Shown one piece after another: positions 54,135 to 63,816 of a DNA stretch of 64,000 nt. The stretch spans positions 1,984,001 to 2,048,000 of the forward strand of contig NW_026570230.1 in the NCBI RefSeq assembly GCF_019649055.1. The letters are read 5' to 3'. The DNA comes from Paramacrobiotus metropolitanus. Lineage: Eukaryota; Tardigrada; Eutardigrada; Parachela; Macrobiotidae. Positions within the stretch are counted from its first letter, which is position 1. The number at the start of each line of letters is the position of its first letter. Below the pieces are notes generated by a model that saw nothing but the letters and a program-made list of their open reading frames with translations, did not search any database and was not told where the DNA came from. A program made the position numbers and the translations under genes.

Positions 54135-56921
54135 ATGCCGGCTCGTCCGACGTTGCATCCGCACTCTCCCTTTAATGCACAATCCGATGCGGATGGACTC
54201 TACAAGTCCATGAAAGGATTAGGTTTGTCGTCGTAGATTCCAGGTTTTGCTGCTGTATGTGTAGAATCGTAGATCTGCTAAAACGTATAAAGATCTGACG
54301 GCAAACGATATGAAATTATAGATTATCGAACAATACAGACTGTACCGCGCCAACTGTCTTGGTCATGACACTTTGACCGTTTGCGTAAAATAAATCAAGC
54401 AAATTATTTGGAAAATTATCTATATGTAAATATAACTTTCATATTTTACCATTAAATCCATTAATATTAATGGATATCTATCAAACAGGCACTGACGAAA
54501 AGCAACTAACATCCATCTTAACGGCCAGAGTATGGAAGCAGCGTCAAGAAATATCTCGCGCCTATCAGGAAAAATATCGCAAGGTACGTACAGGTCCAGA
54601 TTTTGTTTAACTGCCTGCTGTTGTTTAATAAACCCGTACAATGACACACAATTATACGTACGACTGGTAGGGTTCGAACTACCAAATTAAAATTAATTGA
54701 TTTGGCGGTCAAGTTTGCTTATTAATTTAATACCTCTGTGTACTTGCAGAGTTTGCTGGCGGATGTGAAGTCAGACACGTCGGGCGACTACTACAGGTTA
54801 TTAAAAGCGTTAATTCAGTCACCGGAAGTCAGCGATGCCAAGGATCTGAATTATGCTATGAAAGTAAAATAAACAACCGTTTCGATATTTACCTTGTAGA
54901 GAAACAAAGAAACATAATTGTTTTCGATTTTGTTCACTGTTACTTTGCGATTCTATAGTACTGTACAAGCGTTGCTCTTTAAAAATTAGTAGCCACTGTA
55001 ATTATAATTAATGGTAAGCTCAGATATTGCTTTATGGAGGATGGTACAACCGAATTAACGATAAAATTAACTAAGTAATTTTACCGTTTCATAAAATATC
55101 GACGTACTCGTGCAAACATAGATATTGTACGTTTATATTTATAATATGCTCCATTATCCCCCATACCGCCGTACATAAGGTACTAGTACATGCAAACGCA
55201 CGAGTATTGATCGTGATACTGATTTCCTTTTCTAAACACTTCGTTTGTTCAGGGCATTGGAACAGACGAAGATCTCCTAATGGAAATACTTTTCACCAGG
55301 ACAAACTCGGAACTGCACAATATTGACAAGGCCTACCTTGAACGTACGGTGTTAGATAATCGCGGCGGCAAGAAATTGTCAGTTGAACGTTTTTGCGTAC
55401 GAGTACCGAATTTGTTTGATAGTGTTTAAAGTGCCCCTTTCTACGGCAATCAAGAACGATACTTCCGGTGATTTCCGAAATCTTTTGCTGGCCATTGCCG
55501 CGGTGAGTGTAGAACGACATTATAGCCCATTGAATATTATTTCATGCTGTTGCAGTTTTGAAGCGAATAGACTGTAGTTTTTGTAAATACTCCACACTCC
55601 ATGGTGTAGGTATTACGTTTTGATACTTTATTATATATTGTTAGTAATTTGCATTAAGTAAGTGATTCGTTTCGCGTTAAACCGCTTGCCATCGGCATTC
55701 AGCTTCGCTACATTTGCCCCGTTACCACACAACTGATTCCGCACCATAAAGTTTATTAAAACGAGCGCTGTTACAATCGTAATAGACTACGTATTATAAA
55801 TGGAAATTTGAAAATCTGCGCTGAATTTAGGGAAAGCGGGATGCAAACAGCACCTCCTATAATCCGAATCAAGCAATTGATGACGGCAAAGCGCTGTATG
55901 ATGCCGGCCCGAATCGGTTAGGAACCAACATGGCGAAATTCACAGAGATATTTTCCCAACGCAGCATGGACCATCTTTGGAAGGTATTCCATGAGTTCAA
56001 AATGATCGCAAAAATGGACATTCTCGACGCTATTAAATCCGAGATGAGTGGAGATGCCGCAAAAGCTTTTCGCACGCTTGGTTAGTCTATGAAAATTATT
56101 TATGAAAGATTCCAAGTTAGGAAGCCAGTATAGTATTAATCTGATCGGTGTAAGCTGATCGGTGTACTATTTTTTAATAAAAAGTTGGTCGTTGATCCAT
56201 AATTATGTAGGCTTGTCATGAATTATTAGCATGGCATTTTATAGTTTCCGTGCGTATTTCACAACATTTCAAGAATCCCTTGACACGATGCAGTAATTAT
56301 GTATAAAGCATGTTTAATGCTTTCGCGTAACGCCATGTACTCGGTACAGATTGACACGGCATGTCCGCTTCTGCGCTACATGCGTATGTGCAATTTCTTT
56401 TGGAAAGTGTTAATCGAAAATTAAAATGTACGTTATATAGACTGTTATAAATATTTATGTTATGTCTGTATGTGCTATAAATGTTGTAAATATATACAAG
56501 TTTTTGTGTCATCTGTGCAATTTTTATAACTATTTAAACGAAACGTTGAGCGGATTAAAGTTTGGTGTTTAATTACAGCGTACATTATACTAAATGCAGA
56601 AGAATACTTTGCCTTCCGGTTGGCGGAAGCGCTCAAGCGTCCAGTTAAAGACCGCACCGTAATAAGGGTTATTGTATCGCGGTCGGAAAACGATTTGGCC
56701 AATATTAAAGATCAGTTCCGAAAGGTGGCCCATAAAAGTTTGGAAACGTGCATCGAGGTACGATTTTAAATCAGCGTCTGAAACTAACTACGTTTTTCAG
56801 CTTTTGAACGTGTTTTAAATAAATACTCGTATATATCCGTATAATTAATCGTTTTGTATAGGATGAGACCTCGTCTGATTACAAAACGGCCTTATTGGAT
56901 TTGGTTGGAAGACGCAAATAA
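54135..56921 (+). CDS. annexin A (first tandem copy), 8 exons
   Basis: Calcium-dependent phospholipid-binding protein of the cytosol and membrane face. Exons 54135-54222, 54489-54583, 54750-54863, 55253-55343, 55423-55502, 55831-56080, 56579-56757 and 56862-56921 give 318 aa, the usual annexin core length, with a short N-terminus (MPARPTLHPHSPFNA). Four annexin repeats are visible. Repeat 1 has MKGLGTDEKQL with the distal acidic residue in SDTSGDYY. Repeat 2 has MKGIGTDEDLL with NDTSGDF. Repeat 3 has PNRLGTNMAKF with EMSGDA. Repeat 4 has degenerate KRPVKDRTVI, so its type II calcium site is probably lost. The exon pattern is nearly identical to the second annexin at 60140-63816, and the two flank the intronless RING/J gene. 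All phases are consistent. Confidence 0.94.
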
Positions 56922-57832
56922 ACATAGGTAGTACAATAGTACAAATTATTGTCAATATGGACGTCCGAATATACGTACATGTATTGTGCCAATGTTCTGT
57001 ATTTTTCTAAAGTAAAAGAGATGTAACAAGCTACTAGCATGATATTATTTTACATTTCGATGTTTGTGGCAGTGATTTTTTGCATGATATATTTTTATGA
57101 ACTGGGTATCAGCGAAGTCTTCATACATGTTCTACAATATTTACATCAACAAACAACAAAGAATGAGACAATAAAGTAACTACAATGAGAATTCGATAAA
57201 CAGTTTTTGATAAAACGCACCAATAATGAAACGAGCAGCTATAGAGTAAAGCAGTACAAGTACTTACATACATCGCTGTACACACTGTACATTACAGATT
57301 GATAAGCTGCGTTTACAACATGACCGCACCTGTTGACTTTGATATATAATATAACAACAACACCTTCCGGTTCTACACGTTTTGAATTTTAACCACAGTC
57401 ATGTATTGTACATTTGTACCTAAGTAAATACCGTATGTTCTACGAGTACTGTACAAAGTATAAAAACACTGTATACGCTACCGGCGCACAGGAAAACGCA
57501 TCGTCTGTAAATCCAGCAATTGGTAGTAGTGCGTAATGCTACAAGTAAAGGTTTCCTGTTCATGTTTGCATCGCGTACCTACTACAGTACCTATGTAGTA
57601 CAGTTTGGATCGTCACTCATTGGTTTACCGAAGACCGTTTGGAGTTTTCTTTCCAGATTCGTTTTTATTCTAGGTTCGTTTGATCAGAAGCGCATGCTGG
57701 ATGTATTTTTTTTGAATACTGAATACAAATCTTCACAAAATCTTTTCCAATGTAAGTCCTCTTTTCATCGTCAGCATGGTGCGATTGTCATAATTGCAGG
57801 TCTTTACTGCATCTACAATAACATTTGCCTAA
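56922..57832. other. annexin A 3' region and upstream of the RING/J gene
   Basis: The annexin A 3'UTR lies at the left. A possible acceptor (TAATTGCAG) ends near 57800, just before the next start codon, so the RING/J gene may have a 5'UTR intron. No coding exon is supported. Confidence 0.4.
57170..57175 (+). terminator. candidate polyadenylation signal of annexin A
   Basis: AATAAA about 250 bp after the annexin A stop codon. Confidence 0.4.
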
Positions 57833-59227
57833 ATGGAGGACGTATGCGTTGCTTGCACTGAGCGTCTAGCCACCATCCGTTTCAAGCCATGTAATCACCG
57901 CCAGTATTGCTCTACGTGTTTTCCTAAAGTGGAGCGTCGGATCTGTCCTTTTAATTGTCCAGGCTCGGATGTGAATGAAACGGAGGACAGTACTGCAGTC
58001 CAGCTCCGTCCTACAACAGTCGCCGATGCTCTGCATATTCACGATTCGGGGGACCCTTTTCCATATGGCTGTACGGCACCTAATCAATCTTTCCACAAAG
58101 CCTCCCTTGCCGATCATCGGATTGTTTCAGCGAAAATCCAAGAACTACAAGCGGGACGCCTGACTTTGGCAGAACTGGAGCGTGCAGCGGACGACCTGAC
58201 CAAGAGACAGTACAACCTGCTGTTTATCGAGTTGTTCCAAGACCAAGATCTCCATTCTGTATTGAAAGCTGCCGACAGGTTCAAATTTGAAGCCATGAAT
58301 TTTAAGCATAAGGTCAAAGAAATGGTTGTCACCACGTTTACATCGCCCTCGTACAACGCCATTGCGGCACGATCGGGATTGGCTGCGGTGGCTGACGTTT
58401 TTGCCGAACAAATCATCGACAAGATCGGTGGTCTCGGTGGGACATTAAACAAGCCAGCGCTAACTGCCATACCGAACGTGGCCATGTTTGTTATTTTCAG
58501 CGGTGTGGAGATCTACCGTTGGAAGGTATCGAAGTCATTGAGCGGCAAGGATTGCGCTAAAAATGTGGGAGAACATTTTGTGGGATCCTTGTTCGGAGCG
58601 TTGGGAAGTTACGGAGGAGCCATTCCTGGTGCGGCCGCTGGAGCGTGGATTGGCTCTGTCGTTCCCATCATTGGGACCGCGATAGGTGGCGCTATTGGCG
58701 CGATTATTGGGGCTTTTCTCGGTGGATTAGGCATGGATGTCACTGCGCGTCTGCTGTACCGGCAAGCTGTACCCCGAACCAAGCAGGAAGAAAAGGAGAC
58801 GGAAAGAGAGGAGCAACGCCAGATGACAGCAGACGAGAACAAAGCCAACAAAGCCAACAAAGCTGCCAAGAAATGCAATACAGACCTGCAGGTAGATAAC
58901 TTTCCCGAGGCTCAAGCAAGATTTCGTCGCAAGTTGCTGGACTATCATCCCGATAAGCATCCCGATGCTACCGCGGAACAAAAGGAGCAACTGACGGCAG
59001 AGACACGGGATCTACTGGCTTGCTGGCAGATTGTACGCCAGCATTATGCTACAAAGAACGCCAGTCAGCTGAGCGATGAAAGCTTTATTCGGGTATGCGT
59101 ACTGAAAGTGTTCGAAGCCGCGACACAACAGTGGAAAATTGTGAGAACGTTTTTTGAAGATATCGCTGTTGGGCTCGACCTCAATCCGGATACGGAGCGA
59201 GTTGAAAACATGGTTCTCTATTTATAG
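57833..59227 (+). CDS. intronless RING finger - glycine zipper - J-domain-like protein
   Basis: One uninterrupted 464-aa frame in an intron-rich neighbourhood. Residues 5-42 form a compact RING-like zinc site: C5xxC8, C20, H22, C26xxC29, C38xxxC42 (CVAC, CNHRQYC, CPFNC). The last pair has three residues between Cys instead of two. RINGs usually give ubiquitin-ligase activity. Residues about 95-245 are helical with no family I know. Residues 251-300 are a glycine zipper with GxxxG spacing (GGAIPGAAAGAWIG, then GTAIGGAIGAIIGAFLGG), expected to insert into or cross a membrane. A charged EETEREEQ-type linker leads to a J-domain-like segment: FRRKLLDYHPDKHPDATAEQ, with HPD at 372-374, the Hsp70-stimulating motif, and flanking helices in place. 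Function is unknown; membrane-anchored quality control or defence is a guess. The start has good context (CTAAATGG) and sits just before the first zinc Cys pair. Confidence 0.85.
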   Translation: MEDVCVACTERLATIRFKPCNHRQYCSTCFPKVERRICPFNCPGSDVNETEDSTAVQLRPTTVADALHIHDSGDPFPYGCTAPNQSFHKASLADHRIVSAKIQELQAGRLTLAELERAADDLTKRQYNLLFIELFQDQDLHSVLKAADRFKFEAMNFKHKVKEMVVTTFTSPSYNAIAARSGLAAVADVFAEQIIDKIGGLGGTLNKPALTAIPNVAMFVIFSGVEIYRWKVSKSLSGKDCAKNVGEHFVGSLFGALGSYGGAIPGAAAGAWIGSVVPIIGTAIGGAIGAIIGAFLGGLGMDVTARLLYRQAVPRTKQEEKETEREEQRQMTADENKANKANKAAKKCNTDLQVDNFPEAQARFRRKLLDYHPDKHPDATAEQKEQLTAETRDLLACWQIVRQHYATKNASQLSDESFIRVCVLKVFEAATQQWKIVRTFFEDIAVGLDLNPDTERVENMVLYL

Positions 59228-60139: not shown

Positions 60140-63100
60140 ATGGAAGCAGGAACAGTAACCGGCGCTGTGGATTACGATGCACGAGCTGATGCTGAAGCTC
60201 TGCAAGTTGCCCTGAAAGGTATTGGTAAGTGCTTACAATAAGTGTAATTTGTTTACTAATAGTAATGTAGTATACTGAGTTCACGTGTTTATTGTCCTTC
60301 TAATACTTTCCTATTTCTGTCCTTTGTCCTTGTCTTCTTAGCAACTTCTCTTGTGTTTTCCCGGTTCTCTAGTTACGATTCCTCAGTTTCCTTTCAGTTG
60401 TTTTCCTGACCATTACGATACAATAAAGATACGATTCCTACACATGACAATACATGACAATGGCGTGAAGCTTGTGTAATACTGTAGATCTCTATCATTG
60501 AAGTGTACGAGTTCTTTATATACGGCTTAACAGCGCTAGTTCGCTTCTTAATTCGTTCGAATATGGCGACACCAGAAACTCATCCCATCCTACGGTTTAA
60601 TCCCGAGTCGATGCAGTGGGATATGTGGAAAGAAAACCTCCACAGCTATATCGAATTCGCCGACATCCCCGTGGAGAAGCAGAAAGGGCTGCTTCTGAAC
60701 TCGCTGGAGGTCAAGCCATTCGAGATGCTTGTCTCGATGTGCAGGCCGACTGCCATCACGGACAAGAAACTCACCATAGAAATGCTGCTGGCCAATTGGA
60801 TACAGTGTACAACAAGTACACATTCAAGGTCGCGGAGTGGGCACACCTGTTCCGAACTGTCCAAGGAAGGACGAATTGCTGGCGGCATACTCCAGCAGGT
60901 TACGGTACAGGAGTACCGTATGCAAGTTTCCCGCTGACATCATCGACCCGATGCTCAGCGCCGTCTTCATAAACGGCATCCAGTCGGATTCCGTCCGCCG
61001 TCACCTACTGATAAACGAATACCAGACCCACGAAGAGACCCTGAACGCCGCCAGGAAGATGGAAACCGGCATTGAAGAAGCTACGGCCAGTACGTCCAGC
61101 CAAGACCGTGAAACTGTGATGAAAGTCACAGCTAGCAGAAGGTCAACGGTTGTCAAGCAAAAGACATCCAATTCCAGTGGTCAATCCAGTGCAAATGGAA
61201 GCCACAAGCCACCCACCAGCAATCAAAACGAGTCCGATTCCGATTCCAGTTCCCTAAGCGAAGATGCGATTCCTGTGGATCAACCGATCACATGCGCGAG
61301 CGCTGTTTCTACAGGAAACACGTATGCCATAACTGTGGGAAGAAAGGTCATATAGCAAAGGCATGCCGCTCACAGAAGAAATCCGACGTCGCTACGAATA
61401 ACTACATTACGGATTACGCACCGCGTCCTCCATACGACATACTGTGATTCCAGTTCCGGTTCCTACGACGCTTCGTCTCAGTGGTTCAGAGTTCACTAAC
61501 TATATGGTTCTGTTGCCGTGGTTCTTGTTGCTATGGTTCTATGGTTTGTATGCTGCTAAATATATGGTTCTGATGCAATGGTTCAACCCAGCTCTTTTTG
61601 GGCGAGGGAAGGGAATGTAGTATACTGAGTTCACGTGTTTATTGTCCTTCTAATACTTTCCTATTTCTGTCCTTTGTCCTTGTCTTCTTAACAACTTCTC
61701 TTGTGTTTTCCCGGTTCTCTAGTTACGATTCCTCAGTTTCCTTTCAGTTGTTTTCCTGACCATTACGATACAATAAAGATACGATTCCTACACATGACAA
61801 TACATGACAAGTAACGTAATTTATTAAATTAGTAACGTAATTTATTTGATGGCAAAATGAAAAAAAAACTGAGCTAAGTGCGCTATCTTAAAACTCCTCT
61901 AAAAGTATCGAATAATGAATACTACCGTCGCCAGTTTCACATAGAAACGATAGAATGTAATACTAACGTCGAAAAAGTTATTTCTGCCTAAGACCCCACC
62001 TTTTCCAGTGAGCCACGACACCAACACCATAATCGACATTGTCACCAAACGAAATAATCAGCAGCGTGTAGCGATAGCTGCCGCCTTCCGATTACAGTAT
62101 GGAAAGGTTAGTTTAACTTTAGGCGCACGTTATTACTGGAATTGCGGCGATAATTTAGGGTAGCGAAGGCGTAAATTATGCGATCGACAACGGCAAATTC
62201 TATAAATTTGATCACGGCATTACTCTGACGCTGTCAATGGTACACTACAGCAACGGTAACGCTATAATAACTTCATGATGGAACATACATACATGCCTCC
62301 AAAGTCTTTCCACAGGATCTGGTGACGTGTATTCGAGCGGCACTTATGGGAAATTTACAAGAAGTCATCTGTGGACTGTTTCTTCCACCAGCTTTCTACG
62401 ATGCCGCCCAGCTTCACGATGCAGTCAAGGTATAGCTACTAACTACATATAGCTATTCAATTTTGTAACTCGTTATTACTCTGTTATGGTTTTGTAACTC
62501 ATTATTAGAGGTACGTACCTTGATTATTAGAGTTATTAGAGTTCATAACTAGAGTTATGGTTACATTACGAGTACTTATAATTACTGCTTTGCTATTTCA
62601 CAATTCCAATTTGCTACGTCTACTGTAACTTCATAATGAAATCACCGCGCAGTCCGTTAACACAGTACTGTTTTCAACACTTCTATACAAAGTACGAGTA
62701 CATATTATACAGCGACAAATATTTGTGGTTATAAATGTTCCTAAACTTCTTGTACAGGGAATGGGAACCGATGAAGCGGCTTTAATCGAGATTATTTGCA
62801 CCAGGAAAAATGTCGATTTGGCCAGAATCGTTACAGCCTATCAGACAGGTATTTCGAGTCTCGCCAGCATTGTTTTCATTCTTTCTTGGTAGCCCTAAGA
62901 CTAACTTACGCTAAGATCGATTTTGCTTGCACTGTAGTCTATGGGACAGAGTTGGAAAAGGACATCAGTGCGGATACATCAGGAGTACTACGACGCATAC
63001 TGTTGGATTTGCTCCATGTAAACACGATTAAAAGTTATACCAACGAAAGGCTACCACTAGAGTACGCGGTGGACTTTGTCGTTGCTTTCAGGGTAAACGC

Positions 63101-63816
63101 GAAGAAGCGGTGGAGGTCAATATGGAAAGCGCTATGGGTGATGCGCAGTCCCTGGTGGAAGCCGTTGCGGGACGTTGGGGCAGCGACAGTTCTCTCTTCG
63201 CTAATATATTCACGACACGTAGTTATCCACAGCTGCGCATGGTTTTCCGGGAGTTCGAGATAATTTTTAAGAAGGACATCGAAAAAGCAATTTCAGGAGA
63301 GCTAACCATGCTGTTTGACACTGCGCAAATTTTGACTGCTATCGGTGAGAGATTTCATTTCTGCAATCTCGTTTCGGTGACCTTTCCATAAAATGTTGAC
63401 AACACATTATCAATCAGTAAACATTGGAATTACGTATAACTTGGCTTGTGGTGCATTTTTTGAATTTTACTAGCTAAAATTGCCAAAAACAAGCATCGGT
63501 ATTTCGCCGAAGAGCTGCATCGTAGCATGAAAGGATTGGGAACGAACGACAAAACACTAATTCGGATCATTGTAACCCGGTCTGAGATTGACCTGCGTAA
63601 CATTATGGATGAATTTCAAAATCTTTATGGCCAAAGCTTGGACAGCTGGATATCGGTATGGATCTTTTAAGCCCGTACTTGTCACATGTCAGGCGTACGC
63701 TGTGCCGGCATCATGCAGTTTGAAGACAATTTTCTGCTTTGCAGGGCGATACATCCGGAGATTATCGAAAAATCCTCCTTCTCTTGATCGGTCAGCATAA
63801 CGCTTCCAAGACGTGA
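60140..63816 (+). CDS. annexin B (second tandem copy), 8 exons
   Basis: Exons 60140-60224, 62009-62106, 62316-62429, 62758-62848, 62938-63017, 63092-63344, 63474-63655 and 63745-63816 join in phase to 324 aa. Exon sizes (85, 98, 114, 91, 80, 253, 182, 72) shadow annexin A (88, 95, 114, 91, 80, 250, 179, 60), so the two arose by tandem duplication. Repeat 1 has LKGIGVSHDTN, where the canonical Thr-Asp of the calcium loop is gone. Repeat 2 is intact (VKGMGTDEAAL, ADTSGVL). Repeat 3 is altered (AGRWGSDSSLF). Repeat 4 is intact (MKGLGTNDKTL, GDTSGDY). Strong calcium sites are therefore in repeats 2 and 4, unlike annexin A (1-3). Intron 1 is 1.8 kb because of an LTR-element insertion. Intron 2 contains a possible in-frame 81-nt cassette exon. 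Confidence 0.94.
60261..60265 (+). repeat. target-site duplication, left
   Basis: AGTAA directly precedes the left LTR and is repeated directly after the right LTR at 61810-61814. Confidence 0.85.
60266..60459 (+). repeat. left LTR (194 bp)
   Basis: Begins TGTAGTATAC and ends ACATGACA. Contains AATAAAG near its 3' end, a likely polyadenylation signal. It differs from the right LTR only in CTTAGCAAC against CTTAACAAC. Confidence 0.95.
60461..60472 (+). other. primer binding site position
   Basis: TGGCGTGAAGCT starts one base after the left LTR. It begins with the TGG that pairs with a tRNA 3' CCA. I cannot name the tRNA from memory. Confidence 0.5.
60563..61446 (+). pseudogene. broken gag-like gene with CCHC zinc knuckle
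   Basis: The start at 60563 reads a typical Ty3/gypsy gag opening (a PESMQWDMWKENL segment). The gag-like reading then passes from the starting frame into the other two frames near 60797 and 60865 and returns to the starting frame near 61290. A CCHC knuckle at 61325-61366 (C-x2-C-x4-H-x4-C) is followed by a short basic tail and a TGA at 61444-61446. A Ser-rich linker lies between the capsid-like part and the knuckle. No intact protein can be read through as written. Only positions of the breaks are given. Confidence 0.75.
61604..61615 (+). other. polypurine tract
   Basis: GAGGGAAGGGAA abuts the right LTR directly, the expected position of the plus-strand primer of LTR elements. Confidence 0.8.
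61616..61809 (+). repeat. right LTR (194 bp)
   Basis: One-base difference from the left LTR. Followed by the target duplication AGTAA at 61810-61814, which is itself the start of a local 21-bp tandem repeat (AGTAACGTAATTTATT occurs twice, 61810-61846). Confidence 0.95.
61810..61814 (+). repeat. target-site duplication, right
   Basis: AGTAA, identical to 60261-60265. Confidence 0.85.
62159..62239 (+). other. possible 27-codon cassette exon in annexin B intron 2
   Basis: The segment is bounded by AG (ATTTAG) on the left and GT (GTACAC) on the right, is 81 nt long, open in the phase-0 frame of its neighbours, and reads GSEGVNYAID and KFYKFDHGITL. The default model skips it, since QYGK joined to DLVTC is the normal annexin sequence. 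Inclusion would insert 27 residues in repeat 1. Confidence 0.3.

Follow-up and report, generated by a model that had tools for sequence, protein, structure and literature searches.

What would a protein do that carries, on a single chain, a RING-type zinc-binding site, a glycine zipper, and the HPD motif of J-domain proteins? This question is raised by a tardigrade gene that lies within a window of 64,000 nucleotides (C10:1984001-2048000, the whole stretch of DNA that we analysed). Our favored answer, to which we give slightly less than an even chance, is that the product is a J-protein that is anchored in a membrane and carries a RING E3 finger of its own, and that it couples Hsp70 to ubiquitination at one membrane. 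A preliminary description of this DNA had placed the three signatures (RING-type ligands at residues 5-42, zipper at 251-300, HPD at 372-374) in one frame of 464 amino acids. The list of open reading frames, a check of the residues, and an intact paralogue confirm this, and the three-part architecture holds up, with the RING better supported than the J domain. The features of the gene are:

57752..57799, + strand: candidate 48-nt intron 5' of the start codon (GTAAGT...TTGCAG, identified by eye).
57833..59227, + strand: coding sequence, with 464 codons and a stop, for the RING–glycine zipper–J protein (from the list of open reading frames and the intact paralogue).
57845..57958, + strand: predicted RING-type zinc-binding region, residues 5-42 (Pfam zf-C3HC4_3; ligands kept in the paralogue).
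58457..58513, + strand: hydrophobic segment, residues 209-227 (19-residue Kyte-Doolittle mean of 1.70; 1.83 in the paralogue).
58583..58732, + strand: glycine zipper, residues 251-300 (seven GxxxG-type starts; hydropathy; alignment with zipper-J relatives).
58865..59062, + strand: J-like domain, residues 345-410 (partial Pfam DnaJ match, structure model, and fold search).
58946..58954, + strand: HPD motif, residues 372-374 (identical in the paralogue, in the fragment on C253, and in the three zipper-J relatives, L008, L009, and L010; not kept in the more diverged relative L011).
59063..59224, + strand: conserved C-terminal extension, residues 411-464 (65% identity between the paralogues).

An in-frame TAA stands immediately 5' of the ATG at 57833. 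The gene had been called intronless. This is correct for the coding sequence, which is uninterrupted, but only for the coding sequence, because the putative GT...AG intron precedes the ATG.

Is this a working gene? We searched its genome (an assembly of 169.8 Mb in 533 contigs) with the full-length protein. Four loci reach an E of 0.001 or below, one of which is the gene itself. The others are:

C10:2050649-2052025, − strand: intact inverted paralogue, 459 amino acids, 67% identical over its full length.
C253:13769-14077: C-terminal fragment, a 107-residue match at 50%, with the HPD kept (by eye).
C33:14292-14570: decayed copy, a 33% match in a frame with four stops (decay judged by eye).

The inverted paralogue is 7.4 kb from the gene, beyond the window, and retains all eight zinc ligands, the zipper, and the HPD. 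Most of the differences between the two copies are in the third position of codons (113, 74, and 261 differences at positions 1, 2, and 3 of 457 codons), and their nucleotide similarity is significant only within the coding sequence, from the ATG to 17 bases before the end. Across three methods, dN was 0.23-0.24 and dS was 1.6-4.0, which gives a dN/dS of about 0.06-0.15 with dS saturated. Given an intact paralogue, the third-position bias, the saturated dS, and the low dN/dS, the gene and its paralogue are a real, old, and conserved pair of working genes under purifying selection. Protein identity is 68% in the RING (residues 1-44), 44% in residues 45-95, 52% in 96-160, 81% in 161-230, 73% in 231-305, 63% in 306-350, 77% in the J stretch (351-410), and 65% in 411-464. 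The lowest dN among these eight segments is that of the J stretch (0.12).

In the RING-type region, all eight ligands are present in both copies (C5, C8, C20, H22, C26, C29, C38, and C42). With the whole protein as the query, Pfam zf-C3HC4_3 (PF13920) matched at E = 3.4e-5 and 24 bits (23.9 bits for the paralogue), which is under the cut-off of 27 bits. With residues 1-52 alone the score was 30.3 bits, and with residues 1-52/53 of the paralogue it was 29.4 bits, both over the cut-off. There is a Val or Ile after the first Cys and a Pro after the penultimate Cys, which is the pattern of E2-binding RINGs. Other details are less typical. The Pfam match extends only to residue 40 and does not reach the last Cys, and the last ligand pair is C-x3-C, which is one residue longer than the C-x2-C that is usual in RING fingers. 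Also, the residue after the final Cys is Pro, which counts against our main reading, as many active RINGs carry an Arg or Lys linchpin there. The nearest solved sequences are two IAP-type RINGs (E = 0.011 and 0.013), followed by RNF38; that no solved RING does better than E = 0.011 also counts against the main reading. Two LIM domains are among the 20 solved sequences listed at E up to 1, and LIM-type and B-box models from Pfam score weakly on the finger. The IAP-type RINGs (BIRC2, BIRC3, and XIAP) are the best solved matches, at E = 0.011 and above, but they end in C-x2-C rather than C-x3-C. IAPs also have BIR repeats, with the RING at the C terminus. As a side observation, the 150 scored RING matches in the genome include scattered PF13920 frames of equal length (262 amino acids) and near-equal score (e.g., C54:358451, C129:258409, C137:260614, and C146:250891), so that these frames may belong to a family of RING genes that has multiplied and is perhaps mobile.

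How might the protein be held in a membrane? Steps of the form (G/A/S)xxxGxxx(G/A/S) start at residues 251, 258, 262, 266, 281, 285, and 289. Within this zipper, the Kyte-Doolittle profile has one peak in this copy (2.02, at residue 276) and two in the paralogue (2.04 at 261 and 1.81 at 282); that is, the first half has a peak in the paralogue but not here. The zipper is probably a membrane hairpin. (Matches of the zipper to phage tape-measure proteins, endolysins, and bacterial OmpA-type lipoproteins, with a best PHROG E of 1.5e-12, were rejected as probably compositional GxxxG similarity. This is a judgement, and a few zipper-centred matches extend past the zipper, such as phrog_167 over residues 154-363.) Over the protein as a whole, the hydrophobic segments by Kyte-Doolittle are 177-195 (marginal), 209-227, and 276-294. 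Segment 209-227 is a possible membrane helix or peripheral helix, and it is followed by a stretch that is rich in Lys and Arg (229-243, YRWKVSKSLSGKDCAK). By the positive-inside rule, the basic flank of a membrane segment lies on the cytosolic side, so this stretch favors a hairpin that would start in the cytosol and hence a cytosolic J domain. With the J domain in the cytosol, the RING could join it there only if 209-227 is not a membrane-spanning segment. If that segment spans the membrane, the RING and the J domain could be on opposite sides, which counts against the main reading.

The J-like segment is less easily recognized. Pfam DnaJ (PF00226) matched the whole protein at E = 0.0047 and 17.5 bits, as against a cut-off of 27.8 bits, and the scores for the paralogue (12.7 bits) and for residues 300-464 alone (17.2 bits) were also under the cut-off. 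The match covers profile positions 18-43 of 63, which is the helix II-HPD part only, and this counts against the main reading. As it begins at position 18, a canonical helix I is not recognizable in the RING protein. Both paralogues have the same basic helix II stretch, RFRRKLL, along with the HPD, and the C253 fragment has nearly the same. We also modelled the structure of residues 300-464 from an alignment of six sequences. The pLDDT was 77-87 over residues 340-409, and modelled helices at 357-371 and 381-412 flank the HPD. (The model is not fully independent evidence because canonical J relatives are in its alignment. A full-length model from two sequences was poor, with a pLDDT of 40.) A Foldseek search of the PDB gave 82 matches, but not one of them reached E = 0.001. 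The best 50 of the 82 include four J-domain proteins, and these account for the three highest probabilities (0.89 for 1wjz, 0.51 for 2qsa, and 0.28 for HscB, 4it5). In the BFVD, none of 177 fold matches was significant; the top match was an ankyrin protein, and several of the best 50 were named as J-domain proteins. Searches by sequence point the same way. With phmmer, the best solved sequence for the protein alone was human HSP40 (E = 0.018; E = 0.021 for a profile of the pair), and a profile that included the zipper-J relatives described below reached CWC23 at E = 2.2e-4, a result that is not independent because canonical relatives are part of that profile. In this last search, 36 of the 39 solved sequences listed at E up to 1 are J-domain proteins or T antigens. 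In the model the HPD lies between two predicted helices, and J-domain proteins lead the PDB fold search by probability, but no E value of a fold match was significant. As the Pfam match is partial and under the cut-off and no fold match has a significant E, we consider J identity for residues 345-410 to be probable rather than proven.

The same genome encodes simpler proteins that have a zipper and a J domain in one open frame:

C60:601316-602098: zipper-J relative.
C1:4373151-4373894: zipper-J relative.
C51:974830-975573: zipper-J relative.

With the paralogue as the query, we found weak matches in two frames of 261-297 amino acids, those on C60 (E = 0.033) and C1 (E = 0.15); the reverse search gave E = 0.007. 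A direct BLASTP comparison between the RING protein and a single zipper-J relative gave nothing useful (best E = 0.34). The relationship is visible only in searches with the paralogue as query or target and in profile comparisons. For two of the relatives the DnaJ score is over the cut-off (32.6 and 31.3 bits) and for the third it is under (21.6 bits). In the relatives on C60 and C1, the DnaJ match begins at profile position 1. The relatives and the RING protein have a common order of a basic W..K.SG(R/K)...K stretch, the zipper, and an HPD-bearing J segment. They differ in that the relatives have a canonical helix I and a probable first exon (MADKEWRS...), which the RING protein lacks, and two of them end soon after the J domain. 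This exon lies upstream of all three relatives (three of the eight stretches searched, and no other) and would be spliced to the zipper-J frame. No RING was seen in the pieces of the relatives that we inspected, and alignment to them gave no counterpart of the C-terminal extension (411-464). A more diverged relative (L011:2103-2585, − strand) has a shortened zipper and LPP at the HPD position, and is perhaps a degenerate copy.

Using hhalign, we compared the RING pair to the three relatives and obtained a probability of 94% (E ~1e-7), with residues 226-402 aligned to 110-243. As controls, shuffling all columns reduced the probability to 0.1-1.7% in six of six trials, and reversal reduced it to 1.4%. 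With residues 306-464 shuffled it was 86%, and with only 250-305 shuffled it was 0.5-58%, with five of the six best alignments still at the HPD. Alone, residues 160-305 gave 78%, 250-305 gave 57%, and the J part (300-464 or 345-410) gave 1.6-3.0% (E of 0.03-0.015). Therefore, it is the zipper region that contributes the larger part of the 94%, and the HPD adds to it in register. Judged by sequence, the RING protein is in its core a member of the zipper-J family, with the pre-zipper stretch, the zipper, and the HPD block aligning in order. With its RING, it looks like an atypical form of the simpler anchor-plus-J proteins that this genome also encodes, a J-like membrane protein to which a RING was probably added.

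We propose that a zipper-J membrane protein gained a RING here, and that the result is a one-chain version of the DNAJB12-Hsc70-RMA1 system. It would descend from, or have a common core with, the glycine-zipper and J family of its own genome. The zipper hairpin would hold it in a membrane (the ER, or the surface of mitochondria or lipid droplets). Through its C-terminal J domain, the protein would attract Hsp70 and switch on the Hsp70 ATPase on nearby membrane-associated clients that are misfolded or surplus, and the RING at the N terminus would load an E2 for the ubiquitination of those clients. A single chain could then deliver Hsp70-bound clients to an E3 at the membrane, as DNAJB12, Hsc70, and RMA1 do as separate proteins. 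In this scheme we infer zinc binding, E3 activity, Hsp70 binding, membrane insertion, a same-side topology, and the clients. It is also possible, though somewhat unlikely, that the protein represents a single-chain, membrane-anchored "chaperone E3" of the tardigrade lineage, which both brings Hsp70 to a single site on the membrane and couples it to ubiquitination there.

How does this compare to known systems? CHIP is a soluble E3 that binds Hsp70 and has a U-box and TPR, so that Hsp70 is coupled to ubiquitin transfer in one protein; CHIP has TPR and a U-box where the RING–zipper–J protein has a J domain and a RING. A similar logic is found in DNAJB12/DNAJB14 with Hsc70 and RMA1, where a J-protein of the membrane delivers the clients of Hsp70 to a RING E3 that is itself in the membrane. 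The comparison is one of RING and J domains, and those are separate proteins while here there is one chain. DNAJB12 is reported to raise the association of CFTR with Hsc70 and RMA1, and this depends on its J domain (PMC9798423). Similarly, silencing of the Hsp40 MASH is described as phenocopying knock-down of the RMA-type E3 MKB1, although the authors of that report suggest as an alternative that MASH may only stabilise the E3 (PMC7940691). Cooperation between J-proteins and RING E3s of membranes is known for separate proteins. If our reading is true, a natural fusion of the two would be evidence that both activities act at one site and on a common set of clients. It would also be a compact construct for dissecting the handover of Hsp70-bound clients to an E3, and a single-chain chaperone E3 in an animal that survives drying. 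The combination had been called undescribed. We found no protein with a RING, DnaJ, and glycine zipper in the open literature searched, among the matches listed, and none in scans of Pfam, NCBIfam, and PHROGs or in viral, phage, and prokaryote collections. (Passages of PMC9346034 show no RING-J fusion, and in PMC13254874 "ring" occurs once as a whole word, in the reference list.)

Several other readings need to be weighed against a membrane-anchored J-protein with an E3 finger. It is unlikely, though worth taking seriously, that the protein is a zipper-J co-chaperone that works with Hsp70 and uses its zinc finger as a scaffold for binding or dimerisation, not as an E3. The C-x3-C pair with no basic residue after it, the Pfam match that stops short of the last Cys, and the weak LIM-type and B-box scores, with LIM domains among the solved sequences, would all fit such a finger. 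However, RING is by far the best Pfam match, both copies keep every ligand, the E2-binding pattern is present, and the nearest solved sequences are the RINGs of E3s. It is the J-like segment that would be demoted if the protein were instead a membrane-anchored RING E3 that no longer engages Hsp70, which we find rather unlikely. In this reading, the HPD would be a leftover in a helical hairpin, and the C-terminal part would bind a client or partner. The loss of helix I, the partial DnaJ match under the cut-off, and the J part that on its own is not significantly similar to the zipper-J relatives agree with a relic, as does a C-terminal extension that is conserved without a counterpart in those relatives. 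A relic is harder to reconcile with the lowest dN of any segment in the J stretch, and with an HPD and RFRRKLL that are identical in the paralogues and almost so in the C253 fragment.

A reading that we consider about equally doubtful is that the protein resembles C19orf12 and works where lipid droplets contact mitochondria, with the RING and J domain governing turnover of the anchor or of lipid-droplet proteins. Two of the three zipper-J relatives come close to the cut-off of 30 bits for the Pfam C19orf12-like family (PF20721), at 29.4 and 27.9 bits, while the third has 17.7 bits. C19orf12 is reported to reside on lipid droplets, and when its homologue Nazo is lost in flies, Perilipin-2 falls and lipolysis rises (PMC10883546, PMC12384588). 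The C19orf12/Nazo family and the RING protein both have a glycine-zipper membrane segment, but the RING proteins themselves have no match to the family up to E = 10 (up to E = 1 for the full-length paralogue). A search of the genome with the family gave the C60 and C1 frames only, both under the cut-off, so the link is via relatives only, and it lies in compositionally biased zipper sequence. Among the titles listed, no C19orf12-DnaJ fusion is evident, and the word DnaJ is absent from the main text of three C19orf12 papers checked for it. It is nevertheless possible that the zipper-J relatives link this orphan family to Hsp70 co-chaperones, and such a tie between a C19orf12-like zipper and Hsp70 could help explain a disease-linked orphan family. 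Finally, the gene might have been retroposed or laterally acquired, or the frame might be spurious, which we regard as very improbable. The preliminary description had found retroposition and lateral acquisition plausible, and some of the data do fit: the coding sequence has no intron, its third-position GC is 0.52 (0.71-0.81 in six neighbouring coding stretches, a small set chosen by hand), and its codon usage correlates with those neighbours at 0.27 (0.55-0.92 for the neighbours themselves, leaving one out). Against this, two zipper-J relatives have similar values (third-position GC of 0.57-0.61, codon-usage correlation of 0.34-0.37), three have the homologous block in one frame, and the intact paralogue, which is also uninterrupted, is old and under purifying selection. 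Also, searches of prokaryote genomes (bacteria and archaea), phage records, and viral contigs by short peptide patterns and single-sequence tblastn, which would miss distant relatives, found none. An old uninterrupted paralogue, one-frame relatives, and no prokaryotic or viral relative in those collections leave retroposition and lateral acquisition unsupported.

What, then, is the history of the locus? The gene and its inverted paralogue are interspersed with annexin genes:

54482..56757, + strand: annexin gene 1, with four Pfam Annexin (PF00191) matches.
60140..63652, + strand: annexin gene 2, with four PF00191 matches at 62017-63652 (start placed by eye).
C10:2056585-2057355, beyond the window: annexin gene 3, with three PF00191 matches listed.

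The 5' exon of annexin gene 2 was placed by its similarity to annexin gene 3. The genes on either side of the RING-J gene had been taken for two halves of a tandem annexin pair, but with four repeat matches each they look like separate complete genes, and there is a third one past the end of the window. The RING-J gene is between annexin genes 1 and 2, and its inverted paralogue is between 2 and 3. The annexins have diverged (~35-69% identity per translated piece), and the RING-J pair seems to have arisen within an old duplication of this locality. Two other frames lie in this region. Within the span of annexin gene 2, a frame of 172 amino acids (60837-61352, + strand) looks gag-like by eye and has no Pfam match over the cut-off. 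A rhodopsin-type receptor frame (L005:2124-3215, + strand; 7tm_1, E = 1.3e-12), with a second frame directly after it, is located in the interval from annexin gene 2 to the inverted paralogue of the RING-J gene.
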